32,614 nt of DNA from Pararhodospirillum photometricum DSM 122 (GTDB taxonomy: Bacteria > Pseudomonadota > Alphaproteobacteria > Rhodospirillales > Rhodospirillaceae). Shown here one piece after another: positions 1,605 through 32,614 of the stretch. A program made the translations under genes and the position numbers. The notes beneath the pieces are model-generated. The model worked only from the letters and a program-made list of their open reading frames with translations. It was not told the DNA's origin and searched no databases. Within the stretch, counting starts at the first letter, position 1; each line of letters begins with the position of its first letter. The stretch is taken from NCBI RefSeq assembly GCF_000284415.1, contig NC_017059.1, positions 1,235,011 to 1,267,624 on the forward strand. The letters are read 5' to 3'.

Positions 1605-1624
1605 GCCCTTCGCCGTCGGCAATC

Positions 1625-1659
1625 GAGGGGTCTGGGGAGGCCGCGCCTCCCCAGACCTT
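1625..1659 (+). terminator. Palindromic terminator, repeat copy 1
   Basis: Perfect 13-bp stem (1629-1641 with 1645-1657) and a three-base CGC loop, preceded by GAGG and followed by TTC. It sits between the convergent stops of trcR (1604) and the receiver-like gene (1673). This is the plus-orientation form of an element repeated about ten times in the window. Confidence 0.75.
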
Positions 1660-8527: not shown

Positions 8528-10438
8528 ATGGGCAACGCATACGAAGAGGCCTACGCACTCTCGATCAACGACAAGGCCGCCTTCTGGGGCAAGGCCGCCG
8601 AGGACATTGTCTGGACGCGCCGCTGGGAGACGGTGCTCGACGACTCGCGCGCGCCCTTTTATCGCTGGTTTGCTGGCGGTGAGTTGAACACCTGCTACAA
8701 TGCCGTTGACCGCCACGTGGAAGCGGGCCGGGGCGAGCAGGCCGCCATCATCTATGACAGCCCCCTGACCGATACCAAGCGCACCGTCACCTATGCCCAG
8801 CTCCAAGACCAAGTGGCACGCTTTGCCGGCGTGCTGGCCGCCCAAGGGGTGACCAAGGGCGATCGGGTCATCATTTACATGCCGATGATCCCGGAAAGCT
8901 TGGTGGCGATGCTGGCGTGCGCGCGCCTGGGCGCGGTTCACTCGGTGGTTTTTGGCGGCTTTGCCCCCCACGAGCTGGCGACCCGCCTCAACGACGCGAC
9001 CCCCAAGGTGGTGGTGGCGGCGTCGTGCGGGATCGAGCCCAACCGCGTGATCGCCTACAAGCCGCTCCTTGAGGATGCCATCAGCCAGGCGGCCCACAAG
9101 CCGGAAACCGTGATCATCTTCCAGCGCCCTCAGGCCTTGGCCATCTTGGACAAGCCGGGCGACCTGGATTGGGAAGCGGAAGTACAAAAGGTCGAGCCGC
9201 ACCCCTGCGTGCCGGTGGCGGCGACCGATCCCTTATATATTCTCTACACCTCGGGAACCACGGGCAATCCCAAGGGCGTCGTGCGCGACAACGGCGGCCA
9301 TGCCGTGGCTCTCAAGTGGACAATGAGCGCGATTTACGACATCAAACCGGGCGAGGTCTTCTGGGCCGCCTCGGACGTGGGCTGGGTGGTCGGTCACTCC
9401 TACATTTGTTACGCCCCCCTGCTGCACGGCGCCACCACGGTGGTCTTCGAGGGCAAACCGGTGGGCACCCCGGACCCCGGCACGTTCTGGCGGGTGATCG
9501 CCGAGCACAACGTGGTGACCTTGTTCACCGCGCCGACCGCCTTTCGCGCCATCAAGCGCGAGGACCCGGACGCGACCTACCTGAAGAAGTACGATCTCTC
9601 CCACTTCCGCACCTTGTTCCTGGCGGGTGAGCGCTGCGATCCGGCCACCATTGAGTGGGCCGAAAAGGTTCTGGAAGTGCCGGTGATCGACCATTGGTGG
9701 CAAACCGAGACCGGCTGGTCCATTGCCGCCAATTGCAAGGGCTTGCACCTGTTCCCGGTCAAGCACGGCAGCCCGACCCGGGCCGCGCCGGGCTGGGACA
9801 TCCGCGTCCTGGACGAAAACGGCCTGGAACTGGAACCCGGCAAAATCGGCGCCCTGGCCTGCAAGCTGCCCCTACCTCCGGGCACCTTGCCCACCTTGTG
9901 GAACGCCGACGACCGCTTCCGCCAATCCTATCTGGCCGAATTCCCGGGCTATTACAAAACGGGCGATGCCGGGTTTATTGATGATGACGGTTATGTCTAC
10001 GTCATGACCCGCACCGACGACATCATCAACGTCGCTGGCCACCGCCTGTCCACGGGCGCCATGGAGGAAGTGCTGGCGGCCCACCCCGATGTTGCCGAAT
10101 GCGCCGTGATTGGCGTTGCCGACGACCTCAAGGGTCAGGTGCCGCTTGGCTTCGTCTGCCTTAAGGCCGGTGTGACGACGGCGCCCGACAAGATCGCCGC
10201 CGACTGTGCCCGCATGGTGCGCGAGCAAATTGGCCCGGTGGCGGCTTACAAGCAGACCGTGGTGGTGCATCGCCTGCCCAAGACCCGCTCGGGCAAGATC
10301 CTGCGCGGCACCATGCAAAAGATCGCCGACAACCAGGACTTCAAGATGCCAGCGACCATTGACGACCCCGGCATCCTGCCCGAAATCCGCGAAGCCCTGG
10401 AAGACATTGGCCTCGCCGGTCACCGCGTCTCGGCCTGA
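8528..10438 (+). CDS. prpE: Propionyl-CoA synthetase PrpE
   Basis: 636-residue acyl-adenylate-forming enzyme: propionate + ATP + CoA to propionyl-CoA via propionyl-AMP. Seen: the N-terminal acetyl-CoA synthetase-like domain, the P-loop YTSGTTGNPKGVVRDNGGHA (about residues 239-258), ASDVGWVVGHSYI, the motif DHWWQTETGW, YYKTGDAG and the C-terminal PKTRSGKILRG, whose Lys is the catalytic residue and the usual acetylation site. The RDNGGHAVA and SDVGWVVGHSY stretches favour PrpE over Acs. No other prp (methylcitrate or methylmalonyl) gene is adjacent, so the downstream route is not visible. The ribosome site before ATG 8528 is weak. Ends in a palindromic terminator at 10445-10484. Confidence 0.92.
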   Translation: MGNAYEEAYALSINDKAAFWGKAAEDIVWTRRWETVLDDSRAPFYRWFAGGELNTCYNAVDRHVEAGRGEQAAIIYDSPLTDTKRTVTYAQLQDQVARFAGVLAAQGVTKGDRVIIYMPMIPESLVAMLACARLGAVHSVVFGGFAPHELATRLNDATPKVVVAASCGIEPNRVIAYKPLLEDAISQAAHKPETVIIFQRPQALAILDKPGDLDWEAEVQKVEPHPCVPVAATDPLYILYTSGTTGNPKGVVRDNGGHAVALKWTMSAIYDIKPGEVFWAASDVGWVVGHSYICYAPLLHGATTVVFEGKPVGTPDPGTFWRVIAEHNVVTLFTAPTAFRAIKREDPDATYLKKYDLSHFRTLFLAGERCDPATIEWAEKVLEVPVIDHWWQTETGWSIAANCKGLHLFPVKHGSPTRAAPGWDIRVLDENGLELEPGKIGALACKLPLPPGTLPTLWNADDRFRQSYLAEFPGYYKTGDAGFIDDDGYVYVMTRTDDIINVAGHRLSTGAMEEVLAAHPDVAECAVIGVADDLKGQVPLGFVCLKAGVTTAPDKIAADCARMVREQIGPVAAYKQTVVVHRLPKTRSGKILRGTMQKIADNQDFKMPATIDDPGILPEIREALEDIGLAGHRVSA

Positions 10439-10444
10439 CGACCC

Positions 10445-10484
10445 GAGGGGTCTGGGGAGGCATGCCTCCCCAGACTTTCCTTTT
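10445..10484 (+). terminator. Palindromic terminator, repeat copy 2
   Basis: Perfect 26-bp palindrome (10450-10475) centred on GCATGC, preceded by GAGGG and followed by TTTCCTTTT. It lies between the convergent prpE and uracil-DNA glycosylase genes. Confidence 0.8.
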
Positions 10485-10488
10485 GAGT

Positions 10489-11106
10489 TTAAAGCACCCG
10501 CAGAAGCCCCTGAACCGCCTCACGAAACGAGTCCGGCGTTAGGCGTCCAGTGTTTTGGTTGTAGCGCGAGCAATGGTAGCTGTCGCCCAGGCGCACGCCG
10601 TCGGGCAGGGCATGAACCACGCCATGACCAAAGGGAAACGCCTTGAGCGGCAAACCACGCGCGCGCAACACCGCCTCGTGGGCTACCCGTCCCAGGGCCA
10701 ATATTCCCGCCAGGGCCGGCATTGAGGCCATCTCGGCGGCGAGAAACGACCGACATGCGGCCTGCTCCGCCGGGGTTGGCTTATTCTCCGGCGGCACGCA
10801 GCGCACGGCATTGGTGATGCGCACGTCCAGCGGCACGAGACCATCGTCGGGTCGTTCGCCGTAAACGCCGACCATCAAGCCGCTGCCGATCAGGGTTTCA
10901 TAGAGAAGCAGGCCGGCGAAATCCCCGGTGAAGGGGCGCCCGGTGCGGTTGGCGCCGCGTGCCCCAGGGGCGAGCCCCACCACTAGAAGACGCGCGGCCG
11001 TTGGCCCGAACGCGGGAACAGGGTTGTTATGCCCACCGGGGTCCTGGCGCCTCAAGTCCTGGCGGTAGGCGACCAGACGCGGGCAGAGAGAGCAGTCGGG
11101 AATCAC
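10489..11106 (-). CDS. Uracil-DNA glycosylase family 5 (UDGb type)
   Basis: 205-residue Fe-S DNA repair enzyme that removes uracil, and in this family often other deaminated bases, from DNA. Seen: cluster cysteines C5 and C8 (PDCSLCPRL), C103 and C118; motif 1 GLAPGARGANRTGRPFTGD (residues 44-62); motif 2 DSYHCSRYNQNTGRLT (about 175-190), characteristic of family 5 rather than family 4. The start is a GTG at 11106 that overlaps the TGA of the NYN gene upstream (GTGA), which implies translational coupling. The two genes form a minus-strand pair; whether the NYN protein acts in the same repair process is unknown. Confidence 0.88.
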   Translation of the reverse strand: MIPDCSLCPRLVAYRQDLRRQDPGGHNNPVPAFGPTAARLLVVGLAPGARGANRTGRPFTGDFAGLLLYETLIGSGLMVGVYGERPDDGLVPLDVRITNAVRCVPPENKPTPAEQAACRSFLAAEMASMPALAGILALGRVAHEAVLRARGLPLKAFPFGHGVVHALPDGVRLGDSYHCSRYNQNTGRLTPDSFREAVQGLLRVL

Positions 11107-11735
11107 AGGAGATCCGCGAGATCATCCCCCTCATCCGGGTGGGCTGGGGCGGGAGGAGGCGGGGTGCGGGCCTCGCGGGCCTCGCCACGCGTATCGTCGC
11201 GATGCAGTGGGGCGCGAGAAATAGAGGGCTCCAGGTCGAGCAGTTCGACAAAGCTGTCGGCTTGGCGACGCAACTCATCGGCAACCATGGGAGGCTGGGA
11301 GCGCACGGTGCTGACAACCGTTACACGCAGTCCCTTGCGCTGGACGGCCTCGACCAGACGGCGAAAATCCCCATCCCCCGAGAACAAGACAATGTGATCA
11401 AGACACGGAAGCATTTCCATGACATCGATCGCGAGTTCGATGTCCATGTTTCCCTTGATCTTTCGCCGCCCGGTGGCGTCGGTGAACTCTTTGGTCGGCT
11501 TGGTGACCATGGTGTACCCGTTGTAATCGAGCCAATCGACCAACGGCCGAATGGGCGAGTACTCCTGATCTTCGACCAGGGCGGTGTAGTAGAAGGCGCG
11601 GATCAGACGGCCCTTGGCGGCGAACAATTCCAACAGGCGCTTATAGTCGATATCGAACCCCAGCGAGCGGGCCGCCGCGTAGAGGTTGGAGCCGTCGATG
11701 AACAAGCCGATGCGTTCCTGTGGATAAAAGATCAT
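11103..11735 (-). CDS. NYN-domain (LabA/DUF88-like) protein, putative ribonuclease
   Basis: 210 residues. Residues ~1-170 form a PIN-like NYN domain: GLFIDGSNLYAAA near the N-terminus, KGNMDIELAIDVM in the middle and VLFSGDGDFRRLVE, giving the acidic residues expected to bind metal in this nuclease-like fold. The C-terminal ~40 residues are low-complexity Pro/Ala/Asp and probably disordered. Cytosolic, no signal peptide. NYN proteins are usually RNA-processing nucleases, but no substrate can be named. Transcribed divergently from folK across 143 bp and overlapping the downstream glycosylase start by 4 nt. Confidence 0.85.
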   Translation of the reverse strand: MIFYPQERIGLFIDGSNLYAAARSLGFDIDYKRLLELFAAKGRLIRAFYYTALVEDQEYSPIRPLVDWLDYNGYTMVTKPTKEFTDATGRRKIKGNMDIELAIDVMEMLPCLDHIVLFSGDGDFRRLVEAVQRKGLRVTVVSTVRSQPPMVADELRRQADSFVELLDLEPSISRAPLHRDDTRGEAREARTPPPPAPAHPDEGDDLADLL

Positions 11736-11878
11736 GAGAGCCTCACATAAAACGATTTTGCACTATGGCATTTGGGGATAGGAAAGAAAGCCGTTGCGAA
11801 ATGCGAGCGTCTGTTCCCTACTATCTCAGTGGTAATCTTAGTTTCCCGGGTTCGCAAGCACGCGATTGGACGAAGCCA

Positions 11879-12361
11879 ATGATTCTCATTGCTCTGGGGA
11901 GCAATCTTCCCAGCCCGGCAGGACCACCGCGCGAGACCCTGGTCCAAGCGTTGGCCGCTTTGGATGAAGCCGGGGTGAGGGTTGAGATCTGCTCGGAGTT
12001 TTACCTGACCGCTCCTGTACCGCCCTCAGGACAGCCCGATTATGTCAACGCCGTGGCCCGAGTGGCCACCGATCGACCACCGGAGGCCTTGTTGACCCTC
12101 CTTCATGCGATTGAGGCCCGCTTCGATCGCGAGCGCACGGCCCTCAACGCCGCCCGGACCTTGGACCTCGACCTTCTCGATTACCATGGACGGTGCCAGG
12201 AGGGACCGCCGTGCCTGCCCCACCCCCGGCTTGCCGAGCGCGCGTTTGTGCTGGTTCCCCTGGCCGACATTGCCCCCACGTGGATCCACCCCCACTTGCA
12301 GCGCGACGTACACCAGCTTCTTGCCGCGCTGCCCCCGGGCCAAGACATCCGCCCGGCCTGA
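11879..12361 (+). CDS. folK: HPPK, dihydropterin pyrophosphokinase FolK
   Basis: 160-residue folate enzyme that transfers pyrophosphate from ATP to 6-hydroxymethyl-7,8-dihydropterin. Seen: ALGSNL at the N-terminus, SEFYLTAPV, PDYVNAVARV, the Mg-binding signature RTLDLDLLDY and PHPRLAERAFVLVPL. ATG 11879 places the start directly at the family N-terminus (MILIALGSN); an in-frame ATG at 11765 would add 38 residues with no similarity. The ribosome site is weak. No folP or folB is adjacent; instead it heads the alphaproteobacterial order folK-rpoZ-rsh. Confidence 0.93.
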   Translation: MILIALGSNLPSPAGPPRETLVQALAALDEAGVRVEICSEFYLTAPVPPSGQPDYVNAVARVATDRPPEALLTLLHAIEARFDRERTALNAARTLDLDLLDYHGRCQEGPPCLPHPRLAERAFVLVPLADIAPTWIHPHLQRDVHQLLAALPPGQDIRPA

Positions 12362-12407
12362 CCGACCGATGCCCACCCAACGCCCGAAGAAAAAAGACCT
12401 CTTGATC

Positions 12408-12436
12408 TTGCCAAGGCGGATCCTTCTCTCTATGAG
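12408..12436 (+). promoter_or_regulatory. Predicted promoter of rpoZ-rsh
   Basis: TTGCCA (12408-12413, five of six to TTGACA), a 17-bp spacer, then TATGAG (12431-12436, four of six). Transcription would begin ~50 bp before the rpoZ ATG. Confidence 0.55.
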
Positions 12437-12493
12437 TATCGGTTCCGCGCTGGCCGCCTGGCCAGCGCCCGCATCGTTTTGTCGGAGGGGTTG

Positions 12494-12916
12494 ATGGCCC
12501 GCGTCACCGTCGAGGATTGCATTCTCCAAATCCCCAACCGCTTCGAGTTGGTGCTGATCGCCGCCCAGCGCGGACGCCAGATTTCAGCCGGCGCGCCGCT
12601 GACCCTGGATCGGGACAACGATAAGAACCCTGTCGTGGCCCTGCGCGAGATCGCCGACGAAACCGTCGATATCGTCTCGCTCAAGGAAATGGCGATCCAA
12701 GGCCTGCAAAAGCACGTCGAGATCGACGAGCCGGAGGACGACGAGTTCGATGCCATGGGCATGGAACGCGAGTTCACCCGCGAGAACACCGGCGCCGATT
12801 TCGAGGAAGAGCTGATCGCCGATGGCCTCAGCATCCAAGACGCCGAAGGCGACGACCTGGATGCCGCCCTGGAGCCCTTGGGGCTTGATGATGCCGGCGA
12901 CGCCGACGAGGAGTAA
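12494..12916 (+). CDS. rpoZ: RNA polymerase omega subunit with long acidic tail
   Basis: 140 residues. The first ~70 are the omega fold that supports beta-prime assembly: [31 protein letters not shown] and [12 protein letters not shown]. The rest is a strongly acidic tail rich in Asp/Glu, ending [12 protein letters not shown]. coli omega has about 91 residues, so this is a marked C-terminal extension. The ATG at 12494 has GGAGGGG immediately upstream; an in-frame TTG at 12479 is less likely. rsh follows 30 bp downstream, the same neighbour relation as in many proteobacteria, where omega is linked to the ppGpp response. Confidence 0.95.
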
Positions 12917-12946
12917 GTCACACGCCCAGCAAAGGAGGGGCCGGTC

Positions 12947-15085
12947 ATGATGCGCCAGTTTGAACTGGTGGAGCGTGTCAGGGCCTACGACCCCAACGTG
13001 GATGAGGACGCCCTCAATCGCGCCTACGTCTACGCCATGAAAATGCATGGCTCGCAGACGCGAGCCTCCGGGGATCCCTACTTTGCCCACCCGCTGGATG
13101 TTGCGGGCATCCTCACCCAGTACAAGCTGGACTCTTCTTCCATCATCACTGCCCTCCTCCACGACACCGTGGAGGACACGGCGGCGACCTTGGAGGACAT
13201 CCGCACCTTGTTCGGCCCCGAGGTCGCGCGGCTGGTCGATGGGGTGACCAAGCTCAGTCGGCTGCAAATATCCTCGGACCACGCCAAACAGGCCGAGAAT
13301 TTCCGCAAGCTCCTGCTGGCCATGAGCCAGGACATCCGCGTGCTGCTGGTCAAACTGGCCGACCGGCTGCACAACATGCGAACCTTGCATTTTATCAAGA
13401 ACCCCGAAAAGCGCAGCCGCATCGCCGCCGAGACCATCGAGATCTACGCGCCCCTGGCCGAGCGGATCGGCATGGCGGCGATCAAGACCGAGCTGGAAGA
13501 TCTCGCGTTTCGCGAGCTGCATCCCGACGCCAAGGCGGCCATCGAGACGCGCCTTGCCTTCCTGCGCAAGCAGGGCGAGGCGGTGGTCCCCAAGGTCATC
13601 GCCCAACTCCAGGCCACGTTGCACGAGCACGGCCTGGAGGCTGATGTCACGGGACGCGAAAAGACGCCCTACTCCATCTGGCAGAAGATGGGGCGCAAGA
13701 ATATTAATATGGAGCAGCTCACGGATATCCTGGCCTTTCGCATTCAGGTCCAGGACCTGGAAAGCTGTTACAAGGCGCTTGGGATTATTCACGCGAGCTA
13801 TCCGATGATCCCGGATCGCTTCAAGGACTACATTTCGACCCCTAAGCGCAACGGCTACCAGTCGATCCACACCGCAGTGATCGGGCCGGAAAAACTGCGC
13901 ATTGAGGTGCAAATCCGCACCAAGAACATGCACGAGGTGGCCGAGTTGGGTGTGGCCGCCCACTGGTCCTACAAGCAGGGCAGCCCGGCCATGGACGGGC
14001 GGCAATATCGCTGGATTCGCGAACTGCTGGAAATCCTCGACCACACGGCCAGCCCCGAGGAGTTTCTGGAGCACACCAAGCTGGAGATGTTCTCCGACCA
14101 GGTGTTTTGCTTCACCCCCAAGGGCGAACTGATTTCCCTGCCCAGCGGGGCCACACCGGTTGATTTTGCCTATGCGGTGCACACGGAGGTGGGGGACCGC
14201 TGCGTTTCGGCCAAGGTCAATGGTCGGCTGGTGCCCTTGCGTCAAGTGTTGCGAAACGGCGATCAGGTGGAGATCGCGACCAGCAAGGCCCAGACTCCCA
14301 GCCCCGAATGGGAGCGCTTTGCCGTCACCGGCAAGGCCCGGGCGCGGATTCGCAAGTTCGTGCGGTTGCGTCGGCGCGACGAGTACTTGGCGCTTGGACG
14401 CCAGCTGCTGGAACGGGCCTTCCGCACCGAGGGATATGTGTTGTCGGACAAGGCCCTGGACGGGGTTTTGAAGATTTTCCGTCACACGGCCGTCGAAGAT
14501 CTCATTGCCGCCGTGGGCGAGGGCGTGCTCCCGGCGCGCGAGGTGCTCCAGGCCGTCTACCCCGGGCTTAAAGTTCTGCCCCGCTTGGCGACCATGGTCA
14601 CCAACGCCCGCACGCGCAAAAAAAGCGACACGGCGGAGCGCCTGACCATCAAGGGCATGATCCCGGGAATGGCTATGCACTTCGCCAAATGCTGTCACCC
14701 CTTGCCGGGCGACCGGATTGTTGGCATCGTCACCACGGGCAAGGGGATCACCATCCACACCATTGACTGCGAGCAGTTGGAGCAGTTCAACGACGAGCCC
14801 GAGCGTTGGCTTGATTTGGCGTGGGATGACGAGATCAACGGGCAGGTGCACGTGGGGCGGGTCAATGTGGTCATGACCAACGAACCGGGCAGCGTCGCGG
14901 CTATGACCACGGTCATTGCCAAAAACAAAGGGAATGTGACCAATCTCAAGACCACCAGCCGCCAGCGGGACTTCTGCGACATAATCGTTGATGTGGAAGT
15001 CCAGGACTTGCGCCACCTTACCAACATTATCGCGGCGTTGCGGGCCACTCCAGCCATCAACTACGTTGAACGCGCGAGGCACTGA
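12947..15085 (+). CDS. rsh: Bifunctional (p)ppGpp synthetase/hydrolase (RelA/SpoT homologue)
   Basis: 712-residue stringent-response enzyme. Seen in order: HD hydrolase domain with H48, HDTVED (72-77) and LADRLHNMRTL; synthetase domain with RFKDYISTPKRNGYQSIHT (from about 290); TGS domain (about 380-445, FTPKGELISLPSGATPVDFA); a conserved Cys/His segment, HFAKCCHPLPGD; and a C-terminal ACT domain (about 640-712). The intact HD motif plus RFKD, rather than the EFDD of hydrolase-dead RelA, indicates both activities. GGAGG lies 8 bp before an ATGATG start. The stop is one base from the DUF2062 start. Confidence 0.95.
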   Translation: MMRQFELVERVRAYDPNVDEDALNRAYVYAMKMHGSQTRASGDPYFAHPLDVAGILTQYKLDSSSIITALLHDTVEDTAATLEDIRTLFGPEVARLVDGVTKLSRLQISSDHAKQAENFRKLLLAMSQDIRVLLVKLADRLHNMRTLHFIKNPEKRSRIAAETIEIYAPLAERIGMAAIKTELEDLAFRELHPDAKAAIETRLAFLRKQGEAVVPKVIAQLQATLHEHGLEADVTGREKTPYSIWQKMGRKNINMEQLTDILAFRIQVQDLESCYKALGIIHASYPMIPDRFKDYISTPKRNGYQSIHTAVIGPEKLRIEVQIRTKNMHEVAELGVAAHWSYKQGSPAMDGRQYRWIRELLEILDHTASPEEFLEHTKLEMFSDQVFCFTPKGELISLPSGATPVDFAYAVHTEVGDRCVSAKVNGRLVPLRQVLRNGDQVEIATSKAQTPSPEWERFAVTGKARARIRKFVRLRRRDEYLALGRQLLERAFRTEGYVLSDKALDGVLKIFRHTAVEDLIAAVGEGVLPAREVLQAVYPGLKVLPRLATMVTNARTRKKSDTAERLTIKGMIPGMAMHFAKCCHPLPGDRIVGIVTTGKGITIHTIDCEQLEQFNDEPERWLDLAWDDEINGQVHVGRVNVVMTNEPGSVAAMTTVIAKNKGNVTNLKTTSRQRDFCDIIVDVEVQDLRHLTNIIAALRATPAINYVERARH

Positions 15086-15086
15086 G

Positions 15087-15668
15087 ATGTTCAGGCGGCG
15101 GGTCAGACCATCCCTCTGGGCTCGGCTCCGGGAGTGGGTGGCTCCGCGCATGGGCTGGCGCCGGCAGGTCCGGTATCTGGGGCGGCGCATGGCCCGGCTC
15201 CCGGGAAGCCCGGGGTCGATTGCCCTGGGGTTTGCCTGCGGGACCGCCGTGGCCTTTACCCCCCTGATGGGCTTTCATATCGTTTTGGGGGTGGTGCTGG
15301 CCTTCCTGGTGCGGGGCAATGTGCTGGCCGCCGCCTTGGGCACCTTGGTGGGCAATCCCTGGACCTTTCCGGTCATTTGTGTGGGGACGTACGCCCTGGG
15401 GGCCCCCTTGCTGGGCGGCCTCAGCGCGCCGGTCCCGCCTGATCTGGCGACCGAGTTGTCGGGCGTGGGGCCGGCCCTCCTGGCCCTTGATGGCCAGAAG
15501 TTGATCGACCAACTTTGGCCGGTCCTTTTGCCCATGCTGGTGGGAGCCGTTCCCCTGGGATTGGGGGGGGGGCTACTGGCCTATGTCCTGGTACGCCAAG
15601 CGATCACCCGGGCGCGACGCCTGCCTTCGGCTGGCCCCTCTTCCGCCCCGGCCGTGCCACGGTCCTGA
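15087..15668 (+). CDS. DUF2062 membrane protein
   Basis: 193 residues with a basic N-terminus (MFRRRVRPSLW) and several hydrophobic segments (about 45-60, 62-80, 88-112 and 145-165). The DUF2062 core is visible as GSIALGFACGTAVAFTPLMG and LGTLVGNPWTFP. Function is unknown; the family is inner-membrane. The ATG at 15087 begins one base after the rsh stop, with GAGGC before it, so it is translationally coupled. In many alphaproteobacteria this gene is followed by pdxJ, as here, though here pdxJ is cut short. Confidence 0.88.
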   Translation: MFRRRVRPSLWARLREWVAPRMGWRRQVRYLGRRMARLPGSPGSIALGFACGTAVAFTPLMGFHIVLGVVLAFLVRGNVLAAALGTLVGNPWTFPVICVGTYALGAPLLGGLSAPVPPDLATELSGVGPALLALDGQKLIDQLWPVLLPMLVGAVPLGLGGGLLAYVLVRQAITRARRLPSAGPSSAPAVPRS

Positions 15669-15744
15669 CCCTTCCTGAGTGTCTCTGTCAACGGCCGCCG
15701 TTGGAGGTGGGCCGGGTTTTATTACCTGAGCAACGAGGTTTTCC

Positions 15745-15840
15745 ATGACCCGCACGCTTCGGCTTGGTGTCAACATTGATCATGTGGCGACTCTGCGCAA
15801 TGCCCGGGGGGGCTGTCTTCCCGACCCGGTGGCGGCGCCG
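15745..15840 (+). pseudogene. pdxJ: pdxJ 5' remnant (pyridoxine 5'-phosphate synthase)
   Basis: The first ~31 codons read as Pdx[21 protein letters not shown], then PDPVAA. PdxJ normally has about 240 residues and makes pyridoxine 5'-phosphate from 1-deoxyxylulose 5-phosphate and 3-amino-2-oxopropyl phosphate. After about 15837 the frame loses all resemblance to the family, becomes Arg/Gly/Pro-rich and stops at 16086. The missing part carries most of the barrel and active site, so this copy cannot work. GAGG before the ATG and the position after DUF2062 match the ancestral order. The DNA beyond the break is cobN on the other strand. Confidence 0.85.
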
Positions 15841-16327
15841 GGTGGCCGATCAGGCTGGCGGCGTAGCGCAGGAACTGTCCGGCGTTGTCCACGCCGCCCT
15901 CGACCCAGTAGCGCCACAGCCGGTGCAAGGCGGCGGGCGGCAAGGTGGAGTGCACGGCGAGGTCGAGGTCGGGATGGGCGTCGCCCGGCAACAAGGCGAC
16001 CTGGGGGCCGCCATCGCGGGCCAGGGCGTGCAGGCGCTCGACGCCGTGCAGCCAATAGCCCTTGCCGCCCAGCAGGCGCACAATGACCAGCCGGGCGCCG
16101 GCGGCGACCCGATCGATCCACAGATCAACGCTCATGGGGTGGCCGAGGAGGCCCAGGTTGGCGGCACGCACACTAGGCGCGCCGGGCCAAGCGGCGCGGG
16201 CGGTGGACAGGCAGGCGAGTTCGGTGTCGGCGGCGGACAGGAAGACGATCTCGGCCGGATCTTGGGCCAGATCGACGGCCTCGCTGCCATCGGTGATCAC
16301 GCCGGGTTGGGCGGCCAGAAGGTGCAT
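15770..16327 (-). pseudogene. cobN: cobN 5' remnant (cobaltochelatase large subunit)
   Basis: Starting at ATG 16327 the minus strand reads [64 protein letters not shown] and [20 protein letters not shown], the N-terminal part of CobN, which inserts cobalt into hydrogenobyrinate a,c-diamide in aerobic B12 synthesis. CobN normally has ~1,200 residues or more; similarity ends near residue 165 (about 15830), where the pdxJ 5' end is read on the opposite strand, and the frame stops at 15770. AGGGG lies just before the start. The rest of cobN is not in this window, so this copy is non-functional as read. Confidence 0.82.
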
Positions 16328-16370
16328 GCGCCCCTGACGAACTGTTGAACCGGTTGCTGCCCTAAGTTTC

Positions 16371-16416
16371 GAGGGGTCTGGGGAGGCCGCGCCTCCCCAG
16401 CCTTCTTTCTTTTTTT
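16371..16416 (+). terminator. Palindromic terminator, repeat copy 3
   Basis: Plus-orientation copy: GAGGGG, then a stem (16378-16389 with 16391-16400) and a T-rich tail 16403-16416. It forms a long inverted pair with copy 4 immediately following. Confidence 0.75.
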
Positions 16417-16451
16417 AAGGCTGGGGAGGCGCGGCCTCCCCACGACCCCTC
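16417..16451 (-). terminator. Palindromic terminator, repeat copy 4 (after lepA)
   Basis: Same element in minus orientation, 12 bp after the lepA stop on that strand; on the minus strand its stem is followed by a run of A before the next copy. Copies 3 and 4 together are a ~34-bp imperfect inverted repeat around a T-rich spacer. Confidence 0.65.
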
Positions 16452-16463
16452 CGAAAATAGAGG

Positions 16464-18269
16464 TTATTCGTCGTTCATGCGCAGGGCGCTGATGAAGGCG
16501 GACTGGGGAATTTCCACCTTGCCGAACTGGCGCATGCGCTTTTTGCCGGCCTTCTGCTTTTCCAGCAGCTTCTTCTTGCGCGAGATGTCGCCGCCATAAC
16601 ACTTGGCGGTCACGTCCTTGCGCAGGGCGGCAATGGTCTCGCGGGCGATCACCCGTCCACCGATGGCGGCCTGGATCGGCACCTTAAACATGTGGCGCGG
16701 GATCAGATCCTTGAGGCGGGCGCAGATGGCGCGGCCCCGGTATTCGGACTGGGAGCGGTGGGCAATGAACGACAAGGCGTCGACCGGCTCGGCGTTGACC
16801 AGGATGGAAATGCGCACCAAGTCGCTTTCCTGGTAGTCGGACATTTCGTAGTCGAAGCTGGCGTAACCCCGGCTGATCGACTTCAGACGGTCGTAGAAGT
16901 CGAAGACGATTTCGTTGAGCGGCAGCTTGTACACGGCCATGGCGCGGTTGCCGGCATAGGTCAGGTCCATCTGAATGCCGCGCCGCTCGGTGCACAGGGC
17001 CAGGACTTGGCCCAGGTAGTCGTCGGGCACCATGATGGTGGCCTTAACCCAGGGCTCTTCCATGCGGTCGATTTTGACGACATCGGGCATGTCGGCGGGG
17101 TTGTGCAACTCCTCCATCGTGCCGTCGGTCATGTACATGCGATAGACCACGCTGGGCGCCGTAGTGATGAGGTCGAGGTCGAACTCACGCTCCAGACGCT
17201 CCTGGATGATCTCCATGTGCAGAAGACCCAGGAAGCCGCAGCGGAAGCCAAAGCCCAGGGCGGCCGAGGTGTCGGCCTGATACTCAAACGAGCTATCGTT
17301 AAGCCGCAGCTTGGCCAAGCTCTCGCGCAGCACCTCGAAATCGCTGGTATCGACCGGAAACAGGCCGCACCACACCACGGGCACCGAAGGCTTAAAGCCG
17401 GGCAGCGGGGAGGCGGCCGGGTTGCGCTCGTCGGTCAGGGTGTCGCCGATCTGACAGTCGGACACGCTTTTGATGCCGGCCATGATGAAGCCCATCTCGC
17501 CGGCCGACAGGGAATCGGTTTCGATAAGCTTGGGCGTGAACACGCCGACCTTGTCCACCAGATGCACCGCCCCGGTCGCCATCATGCGTACGCGCATGCC
17601 CTTGCGGAACACGCCCTCGCGCACCCGCACCAAGGTGACGACACCCAGATAGGAGTCGTACCAGCTATCGACCAGCAAGGCCTGGGGCGGGGCGTCAATG
17701 TTTCCCTTGGGCGGCGGCAGGCGCTGCACCAGGGCTTCCAGGACCTGCTCGACGTTGAGGCCGGTCTTGGCCGAGATGCCCACGGACTCGGAGGTATCGA
17801 GGCCGATCACGTCCTCGATCTGCTGCTTGATGCGCTCGGGCTCGGCGGCCGGCAGGTCGATCTTGTTGAGAACGGGGATGATCTCGTGGCCGGCGTCGAT
17901 GGCCTGATAGACGTTGGCCAGGGTCTGCGCCTCCACGCCTTGGCTCGCGTCCACCACCAGCAAGGAGCCCTCGCAGGCGGCCAGCGAGCGCGAGACCTCG
18001 TAGGCGAAGTCCACGTGGCCCGGGGTGTCCATCAAGTTGAGCTGATAGGTGCGTCCGGTCGAGGGCGAGACATAACTCAAGCGCACGGTTTGCGCCTTGA
18101 TGGTAATGCCGCGCTCGCGCTCCAGATCCATGGAGTCGAGCAACTGCTCCTTCATGTCGCGGGCTTCCACGTTCCCGCAAAGCTGGATCAGCCGGTCGGC
18201 CAGCGTGGACTTGCCGTGGTCGATGTGGGCGATGATCGCGAAGTTGCGGATATGAGAAAGATCGCTCAT
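16464..18269 (-). CDS. lepA: Elongation factor 4 (LepA)
   Basis: 601-residue translational GTPase that acts on the ribosome. Seen: G1 AHIDHGKST (residues 14-22), [13 protein letters not shown]3 DTPGH, G4 NKID, G5 SAKTG, the domain 2-4 core including [13 protein letters not shown], and the LepA-specific C-terminal domain ending [23 protein letters not shown] 18269 (GGAG four bases upstream) is preferred over longer in-frame starts because [20 protein letters not shown] is the family N-terminus. Length is standard. A good promoter lies ~65 bp upstream. It is followed by the palindromic repeats and the cobN fragment. Confidence 0.97.
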
Positions 18270-18333
18270 GGGACTCCGGTCTGCGGCTGGGCAGTGGGAA
18301 AGGAAAGACGAGGGCACAAACGTGCAAACGCGG

Positions 18334-18362
18334 ACCATAGGGCTAAATCTGTTTGGGTTCAA
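18334..18362 (-). promoter_or_regulatory. Predicted promoter of lepA
   Basis: On the minus strand: TTGAAC (18357-18362), 17-bp spacer, TATGGT (18334-18339); four of six matches at each hexamer. The leader would be about 58 nt. Confidence 0.5.
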
Positions 18363-18386
18363 CCGTGACCGGAGGCTGGGAAGGAC

Positions 18387-18427
18387 GGGGTCTGGGAAGG
18401 TCCCACCTCCCCGGCCTTCCTTTTTTC
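18387..18427 (+). repeat. Palindromic repeat, degenerate copy 5
   Basis: Diverged member of the family: GGGGTCTGGGAAGG, a spacer, CCTCCCCGGCCTT, then CCTTTTTT. Imperfect stem. It lies upstream of both lepA and nrdJ, so it ends no adjacent gene. Confidence 0.55.
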
Positions 18428-18635
18428 TCACGGCTCGGAGTCGCGCTCTCGATACGAGAGGACCCAAAACAGCTCTCGTTCCGGCTGGGACCAAGCGACT
18501 CGGGCCCCGGAGTCGTCGGCGTTTTTTCCCAACCCCGGCGAGTCATTTTTCTGCGAGGGACTCGACCTCGGGGTAAAAAAAACGCTTCAGCCTTCTCGAG
18601 AGAATCGCATACCTAGGCCTCCCGTCCGGCTGGGC

Positions 18636-24533: not shown

Positions 24534-24667
24534 GACGACCTCCCGAGCCCCTGATCTGGTGAGGAAGGCTACCGCACGAGCAGCCGTAAATCGAGGAGGT
24601 CCCCGAGACACCCGGATTACGGCATTTATGCACCCTAAAGCTTTTTAGGAAGAAGACCGTTATCGGG

Positions 24668-24703
24668 AAGGCTGGGGAAGCAGGGCCTCCCCAGACCCCT
24701 CCT
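24668..24703 (-). repeat. Palindromic repeat copy 7
   Basis: Minus-orientation copy (AAGGCTGGGG ... CCTCCCCAGACCCCTCC) in the divergent gap between the chemoreceptor and prmA. No T-run follows the stem on the minus strand and no gene ends here, so it is not an ordinary terminator. Confidence 0.65.
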
Positions 24704-24795
24704 TTCCTGGGGACCTGCCTCACTTTGTGCTGGCTTTCCCTGGCTTGCAAAAAAAGTCTAAACTCCCCCCTTGCGCCGACCGAGGAGATCGCATC

Positions 24796-27510: not shown

Positions 27511-27513
27511 GAG

Positions 27514-27548
27514 AAGGCTGGGGTGGCAGGCCTCCCCAGACCCCTCGT
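27514..27548 (-). repeat. Palindromic repeat copy 8
   Basis: Minus-orientation copy between two plus-strand genes (peptidase ending 27510, kinase starting 27599). Its terminator polarity is opposite to the transcription of both neighbours. Confidence 0.7.
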
Positions 27549-27598
27549 TCCTTGGGGTGTCATGGCCGACGTGACCCCTGCTCGCAAAGGCTGGTGCC

Positions 27599-28864: not shown

Positions 28865-28874
28865 CCCCCTGCCC

Positions 28875-28917
28875 CGAGGAGCCTGGAGGGGCCGAGCCTC
28901 CCCAGCCTTGTTTTTTT
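28875..28917 (+). terminator. Palindromic terminator, repeat copy 9
   Basis: Plus-orientation member after glycerate kinase, with CCTGGAGGGG / GCCTCCCCAG arms and a T8-rich tail (28909-28917). Imperfect stem but the strongest T-run of the set. Confidence 0.72.
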
Positions 28918-31555: not shown

Positions 31556-31596
31556 CGAGGGGTCTGGGGAGGCCGCGCCTCCCCAGCCTTGTTTTT
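31556..31596 (+). terminator. Palindromic terminator, repeat copy 10 (after icd)
   Basis: Near-consensus plus-orientation copy: GAGGGGTCTGGGGAGG, CGC loop, CCTCCCCAGCCTT, then GTTTTT. Its T-run overlaps the stop codon (31595-31597) of the convergent phage-like gene. Confidence 0.8.
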
Positions 31597-32614
31597 ATTG
31601 GAATTCAGACGCCCGAATGGCCAGATAAGCGTAAGAAGCGCCACTTGCATTGAGCCCCTCCCAAGTCGTGGTCAGGGTAAACCCGGGCGCCGCCAGAACG
31701 GGATCGGGCGCTGTGCCCTGCCCCCCTTCGATCCCTGTGGTATTGGCGGCCAACTCACAAGGACCAGCCCCCCGGGCCTGTTGACGCACCCTGTCGTAGA
31801 TCAAGGTGTTACCGCCACTAACGCGGCGGATCATCAGCCACTGGGGATCCCAGCCGGTGCCGCAGGTCACGCTTAACGGCGTGGCCGAGCCGGTCCCGAC
31901 ATAGGTGCCGGCCGCGATGAGACGCGGAGCGTCGGCCCAAAGATAGGCGATGTAAGGAACGCCGGACTGATTGGCATAATAGGCCTGCGATCCCCCCTGA
32001 AACACGGCGCGGGTATGCTCCGTGCCCAAAAACTGCCCCTGGCTCTGCCACGCGTTGGTGGTATTGAACTCCACACTATTGACCCCGGCCGCGACCCCCT
32101 TGTGCCACGCAACCCAGTTAGCCTCGCTGCTGGTATTGCGTAGGAGAATGAAGGCCGGCGCCGTCTTGAGACCGTGGGCAATCAAGGTTCCGGCGACCCC
32201 TGTGCCGGTATAAGAAACGACATCGAAAAACCCCGGCGCTCGACGGAACGACCACAGAACATAGGACAACCCACTTTTATTGACGTTATAGGCCGACGAC
32301 CCCAGTGTGACGCCCTTGGTCGTAAAGGCACTCAGGAAGTCGGTGGCTGTATACTGATAACTGGTGCTGTTGGTTTGAAGATAGGCGTTGGGCCCGCGCA
32401 GGGTGTCGAACAAAAAATGGGAGCTGCTTGCCGAACGCCCCTTGTTCCACACAAGTCCCCCGGTGGACGCCAGATCGACCCCGGTCACCACCTCCCCCGC
32501 CGTCGCGGTGCCGGTGTACAAGGTGGTGGCAAACAGGCTGGAAAGGTCCTCGGGCCCGACCAAGCCGATCGACCCGCTGGGGGCAAAACGCCGCCGCCCC
32601 TGGGCGGAAGGGGG
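31595..32614 (-). CDS. Phage-like DUF7483 repeat protein (5' partial)
   Basis: 340 codons visible and the frame is open to the window edge, so the start is outside; a TTG at 32563 is possible but 17 in-frame codons precede it. The protein is a string of beta-rich modules seen in phage tail-fibre or structural proteins: GGLVWNKGRS with HFLFDTLRGPNAYLQTNS; FFDVVSYTGTGVAGTLIAHG with WVAWHKG; and GTYVGTGSATP with LIYDRVR. I associate this pattern with DUF7483 by memory. It is rich in Ser, Thr, Tyr, Asn and Trp, unlike its Ala/Arg/Pro-rich neighbours. This may be the edge of a prophage or phage remnant lying against icd. Confidence 0.75.
   Translation of the reverse strand, partial: PPSAQGRRRFAPSGSIGLVGPEDLSSLFATTLYTGTATAGEVVTGVDLASTGGLVWNKGRSASSSHFLFDTLRGPNAYLQTNSTSYQYTATDFLSAFTTKGVTLGSSAYNVNKSGLSYVLWSFRRAPGFFDVVSYTGTGVAGTLIAHGLKTAPAFILLRNTSSEANWVAWHKGVAAGVNSVEFNTTNAWQSQGQFLGTEHTRAVFQGGSQAYYANQSGVPYIAYLWADAPRLIAAGTYVGTGSATPLSVTCGTGWDPQWLMIRRVSGGNTLIYDRVRQQARGAGPCELAANTTGIEGGQGTAPDPVLAAPGFTLTTTWEGLNASGASYAYLAIRASEFQ

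Follow-up and report, generated by a model that had tools for sequence, protein, structure and literature searches.

Very probable assembly misjoin between truncated pdxJ and cobN genes in the deposited genome of Pararhodospirillum photometricum

The window, that is, the whole stretch of 32,614 nucleotides analysed here, corresponds to C1:1235011-1267624 in the genome of Pararhodospirillum photometricum DSM 122, which is available as a single contig (C1) of 3,876,289 bases. Near its middle, two ordinary vitamin-biosynthesis genes, pdxJ and cobN, meet in opposite orientation, and both are incomplete. The plus strand carries a gene for a DUF2062 protein (15087..15668; PF09835, E 2e-35), followed by its downstream neighbour, the 5' fragment of pdxJ (15745..15837), which comprises codons 1-31. 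The minus strand carries the 5' fragment of cobN (15834..16327), of approximately 164 codons, and, upstream of this fragment, an open reading frame (16464..18494) which is presumably lepA, to judge from its translation. The DUF2062 protein also scored 131 bits against the family NF047382 ("type IV secretion system effector BspA"), for which the cut-off is 300, and this name is not transferable.

The match of the plus-strand frame at 15745 to the PdxJ profile of Pfam (PF03740) is limited to positions 1-26 of 234 (E 6.3e-8), and six pdxJ models of NCBIfam match the same frame, the best of them (NF003624, positions 3-32) with an E value of 7e-12. On the minus strand, the frame 16327-15770 matches only the beginning of two NCBIfam cobN models, NF008973 (positions 1-167 of 1105, E 7.4e-47) and TIGR02257 (positions 1-164 of 1226, E 1e-41), and has no match in Pfam. 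The exact limits lie at 15837 for pdxJ and 15834 for cobN, which leaves four bases, GGCG (15834-15837), common to the two sides, with the join at or within them, and neither an N nor any other gap mark is present there. These profile matches bear out the original prediction that the first ~31 codons of pdxJ and the first ~165 codons of cobN are truncated at one point. The accompanying description of the genes as meeting "tail-to-tail" needs one correction, in that two 5' fragments meet here by their truncated ends.

The missing parts of both genes are found elsewhere in the genome, as had been suggested by the proposal to look for pdxJ from codon ~32 and cobN from codon ~166. The remainder of pdxJ begins at C1:908413, 342 kb from the window, and the remainder of cobN at C1:1972842, 722 kb from the window, with PdxJ profile positions 17-234 at C1:908414-909067 and CobN positions 157-1214 at C1:1972844-1976071, both on the plus strand. 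When window positions 15745-16327 were used as a DNA query against the genome, only two short matches were recovered besides the query itself. The first aligns window 15807-15841 with 908413-908447 at 97% identity, and has an exact core of 31 bp (15807..15837, plus strand; C1:908413-908443) at the very start of the displaced pdxJ part. The second aligns window 15834-15867 (minus strand) with 1972842-1972875 at 100%, so that 34 bp of cobN are repeated exactly at the start of its displaced part. Both short copies are read here as overlaps between contig ends.

The profile search of the genome recovered no intact second copy of pdxJ or of cobN, although the original prediction had allowed for one. 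Further CobN-like matches at 90.8-93.7 kb, in a frame of 1282 amino acids, score under the family cut-off, and probably represent the magnesium chelatase subunit BchH. The genes downstream of the displaced pdxJ part at 908 kb read as lepB, rnc, and era from their translations, in line with the expectation that these three genes would have moved away from the 5' part of pdxJ. For acpS, the remaining gene of the predicted acpS-lepB-rnc-era block, the single ACPS-family match in the genome lies at 3.39 Mb.

When the overlaps are counted once, the separated parts give a complete PdxJ of 244 amino acids and a complete CobN of 1240 amino acids, and the halves are thus complementary, with no loss. 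The joined PdxJ aligns with that of Pararhodospirillum oryzae, a member of the same genus (genome G001), over residues 1-243 at 74% identity with one gap, and the joined CobN aligns over residues 1-1236 at 78% identity with nine gaps, none of which, in either protein, falls at the join. The DNA of P. oryzae is in the same order across each break, and is uninterrupted there. On its contig C27, of 50,353 bases, window positions 12476-15370 and 15742-15863 are followed in order by positions 10012-13169 of genome stretch L010, which holds the displaced pdxJ part; no DNA similarity was reported between window positions 15371 and 15741. On contig C103, window positions 15834-18270, from the putative lepA into cobN (aligned in one stretch to L141 8598-11006), are found in order with positions 10000-13249 of stretch L011, which holds the displaced cobN part.

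The split of pdxJ is also peculiar to this genome among the 21 that were compared. PdxJ is represented by a single match (positions 1 to 232-234) in 18 of them and by none in two, and only P. photometricum has two partial matches. A full-length cobN is present in eight of the 21, that is, in P. oryzae (with two weaker partial matches in addition) and seven others, while ten have no match, G012 has the gene on two contigs, G006 has several stretches, and P. photometricum has it in pieces. A protein search with PdxJ, in which 7996 of 8000 scored candidates were above the cut-off and the best 120 were listed, returned a single 100% match among these 120, the truncated PdxJ of 216 amino acids on the contig of 3,876,289 bp. 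The other listed proteins (best 120 of 7996) are 64-77% identical, and none of the 120 matches listed is a complete PdxJ from another, independent assembly of P. photometricum.

The DNA that precedes each displaced part is itself cut. Phage DNA that includes a lambda-type portal gene (PF05136) lies directly before the 3' part of pdxJ and stops in mid-frame at the join. Its last 418 bp recur at 2,805,451-2,805,868 with 100% identity and are followed there by a different continuation, in which an open frame that matches no Pfam family crosses the end of the repeat. Before the 3' part of cobN, the last 541 bp of the adjacent open reading frame, which also stops in mid-frame at the join, recur at 1.56 Mb with 98.5% identity, and the recurring frame there extends into a nuclease domain of the Mrr type (PF04471, positions 2-114 of 115). 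In the deposited sequence, the Mrr-type frame runs in frame into cobN, to form a fusion of 1248 amino acids (L011 9516-13262; C1:1972358-1976104), which is probably an artefact of the same misassembly. The 541-bp copy could be a real second element. The Mrr-type fragment is itself preceded by what we take to be a repressor-like frame, and the DNA on this side of cobN is phage-like, by appearance only.

Similar joins are also found elsewhere in the genome, including places far from pdxJ and cobN. A second example lies near the displaced pdxJ part, at C1:905,079-905,088 (L010 6666-6675), where a Mu-type gpT major head gene breaks off after 111 of 289 profile positions and abuts a phage gene in reverse orientation, presumably a head decoration gene to judge from its appearance, in what is probably a further misjoin. 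The 452 bp before this join recur at 3.17 Mb with 100% identity, there as part of a full-length head gene (1-289 of 289), and the 389 bp after it recur at 2.983 Mb with 99.2% identity, next to a frame, itself incomplete, that has a match to capsid E (positions 2-166 of 329). A survey of 52 stretches, made up of the window, 11 targeted stretches, and 40 that were roughly evenly spaced (1,052,614 bp, 27% of the genome), was conducted for repeats of at least 100 bp with at least 95% identity. Twelve positions were found at which two repeated segments whose other copies lie at different loci stand directly side by side, their BLAST ends being 0-3 bp apart in 11 of the 12 and 9 bp apart in the other; one of them, at 2,476,467, involves an inverted repeat. 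The twelve abutments are not a count of proven misjoins, because several involve transposases or other multicopy sequences, in which the end of a contig is not easily told from a genuine repeat, and not all were sorted. In 16 adjoining stretches (320 kb) of the relative G002 there were no repeats of at least 100 bp at 95%, a control that is weak because it covers one block of a genome which is itself a draft.

Taken together, the suffix-to-prefix overlaps, the joins in mid-gene that share few or no bases, and the complementary halves argue for contigs that were set in the wrong order and left unmerged. The junction of pdxJ and cobN is thus very probably an assembly artefact, a reading that draws on sequence comparison and on features seen directly, namely, the overlaps, the fit between the halves, the DNA order shared with P. 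oryzae, and the similar joins. One contig would end inside pdxJ at ~15837 and an unrelated, reversed contig would begin inside cobN at ~15834, while the true neighbours of both ends would have ended up at 908 kb and at 1,973 kb, where they would retain the shared 31 and 34 bp. The single sequence of 3.88 Mb would then consist of contigs set end to end, and we infer that an assembler or finisher concatenated them. The original prediction had offered an inversion, a translocation, or a misjoin, and it is the misjoin that is favoured by the overlaps and the complementary halves. In the living bacterium, pdxJ and cobN are most likely intact, and the junction is most likely an artefact of the database and not a rearrangement of the genome.

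The arrangement resembles that of a misordered draft assembly, with gene halves that complement each other exactly, overlaps between suffix and prefix, little or no sequence common to the two sides of a join, and the continuation elsewhere. It differs from such an assembly in being a single contig in which no N spacers mark this join, and the unmarked join also counts against a misjoin, as do the incomplete genes at some of the partner places and the length of the overlaps, which is 31 and 34 bp here versus 389-562 bp at other joins. None of these points gives any pointer to a real rearrangement, and the idea that a minimum-overlap rule of the assembler produced the short overlaps is only a guess. 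The reading of the 389-562 bp duplicates as gap-bridging pieces taken from two contig ends was considered and dropped, because plain suffix-prefix overlaps fit better with which copy continues each frame. The title "shotgun genome sequence", which the reference list of PMC7714858 gives for the likely source sequence, also speaks for a misjoin. In the literature library searched, no paper on the misassembly of this genome turned up, and nothing useful on the concatenation of contigs as a general practice.

If the sequenced strain had truly undergone an inversion or translocation that disrupted both genes and brought their 5' parts together, two truncated housekeeping genes would likewise meet in opposite orientation. 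Such an event agrees with the existence of the join in the deposited sequence and with the collinearity of the flanks of each break with P. oryzae. An inversion, however, would have joined the missing parts to each other, as the original prediction pointed out, whereas the 3' parts of pdxJ and cobN lie 1.06 Mb apart, each beside unrelated DNA, and the reciprocal join is missing. It is not a simple inversion, then, because the missing halves are not joined to each other; nor would a simple inversion make the exact duplication of 31-34 bp that flanks each break. The DNA preceding each 3' part terminates in a duplicated segment as well, and a rearrangement of this type would leave no intact pdxJ or cobN, all of which makes it highly improbable.

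A chimeric read or clone, formed through the 4-bp GGCG homology, may instead be the reason why pdxJ and cobN were linked during assembly. The four bases common to both sides of the join are in its favour, but five other joins (L010 6675, L010 9999, L020 10867-10869, L146 8345/8346, and L145 10292) share only 0-3 bp exactly, as expected for blunt concatenation, and chimera formation appears even less probable than a chromosomal rearrangement. The junction would likewise be an artefact in this case, with the cause alone being different.

The presence of a phage portal gene just before the 3' part of pdxJ, and of an Mrr-type nuclease fragment before that of cobN, recalls a further scenario, in which mobile elements or prophages were inserted into both genes and the host halves were joined by later deletion or recombination. 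The 31- and 34-bp copies do at first resemble duplicated attachment cores, but the two putative cores share only 4 bp, and no such foreign DNA is found at the join in the window. At both displaced sites, moreover, it is cut genes and not the ends of elements that lie at the joins, with their continuation elsewhere in the genome, and insertion into pdxJ and cobN does not account for the joins far from either gene. The probability of this scenario is close to negligible, and the 31-bp copy, which was considered as a phage attachment core, was dropped as such. Just as close to negligible is the probability that the chromosome of the strain was really shattered and religated, with many genes, including pdxJ and cobN, broken and bluntly rejoined and with short duplications of the broken ends.

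The finding is very probably an ordinary misassembly, and its only interest lies in the caution that it advises in using this reference genome. Near such joins, the gene order, the fused or truncated genes, and the prophage content are not to be trusted, as exemplified by the fusion frame that runs into CobN and by the truncated PdxJ, and the same signature should be looked for in other findings from this genome. If the sequence is the 2012 shotgun sequence of the strain (HE663493.1), as is most likely, at least one comparative study (PMC6292899) has treated it as a genome of one chromosome; in a table of that study, as its columns were interpreted, P. photometricum is listed at 3.88 Mb with one chromosome.

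A number of other features were observed in the sampled stretches. Many near-identical copies of 0.4-1.3 kb, some of them back to back, are found in L147 2600-15750 (C1:42.6-55.7 kb), L175, and L176, and resemble strings of short contigs. The 1.05 Mb of the 52 stretches contain 69 single N bases, one of them, for example, inside an open reading frame (L011 8296), and one run of 2501 N. A frame with a DUF7483 match (PF24299, E 2.7e-53) lies at the right edge of the window (31595-32563, minus strand). A short, palindromic, GC-rich element with a GGGGAGGCGCGGCCTCCCC core is present in many stretches of the genome, including window positions 1624-1659, 16370-16451, 24667-24712, 27513-27557, 28874-28915, and 31556-31590; part of it matches several contigs of P. 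oryzae, and it resembles a REP-type or terminator-like family of repeats within the genus.
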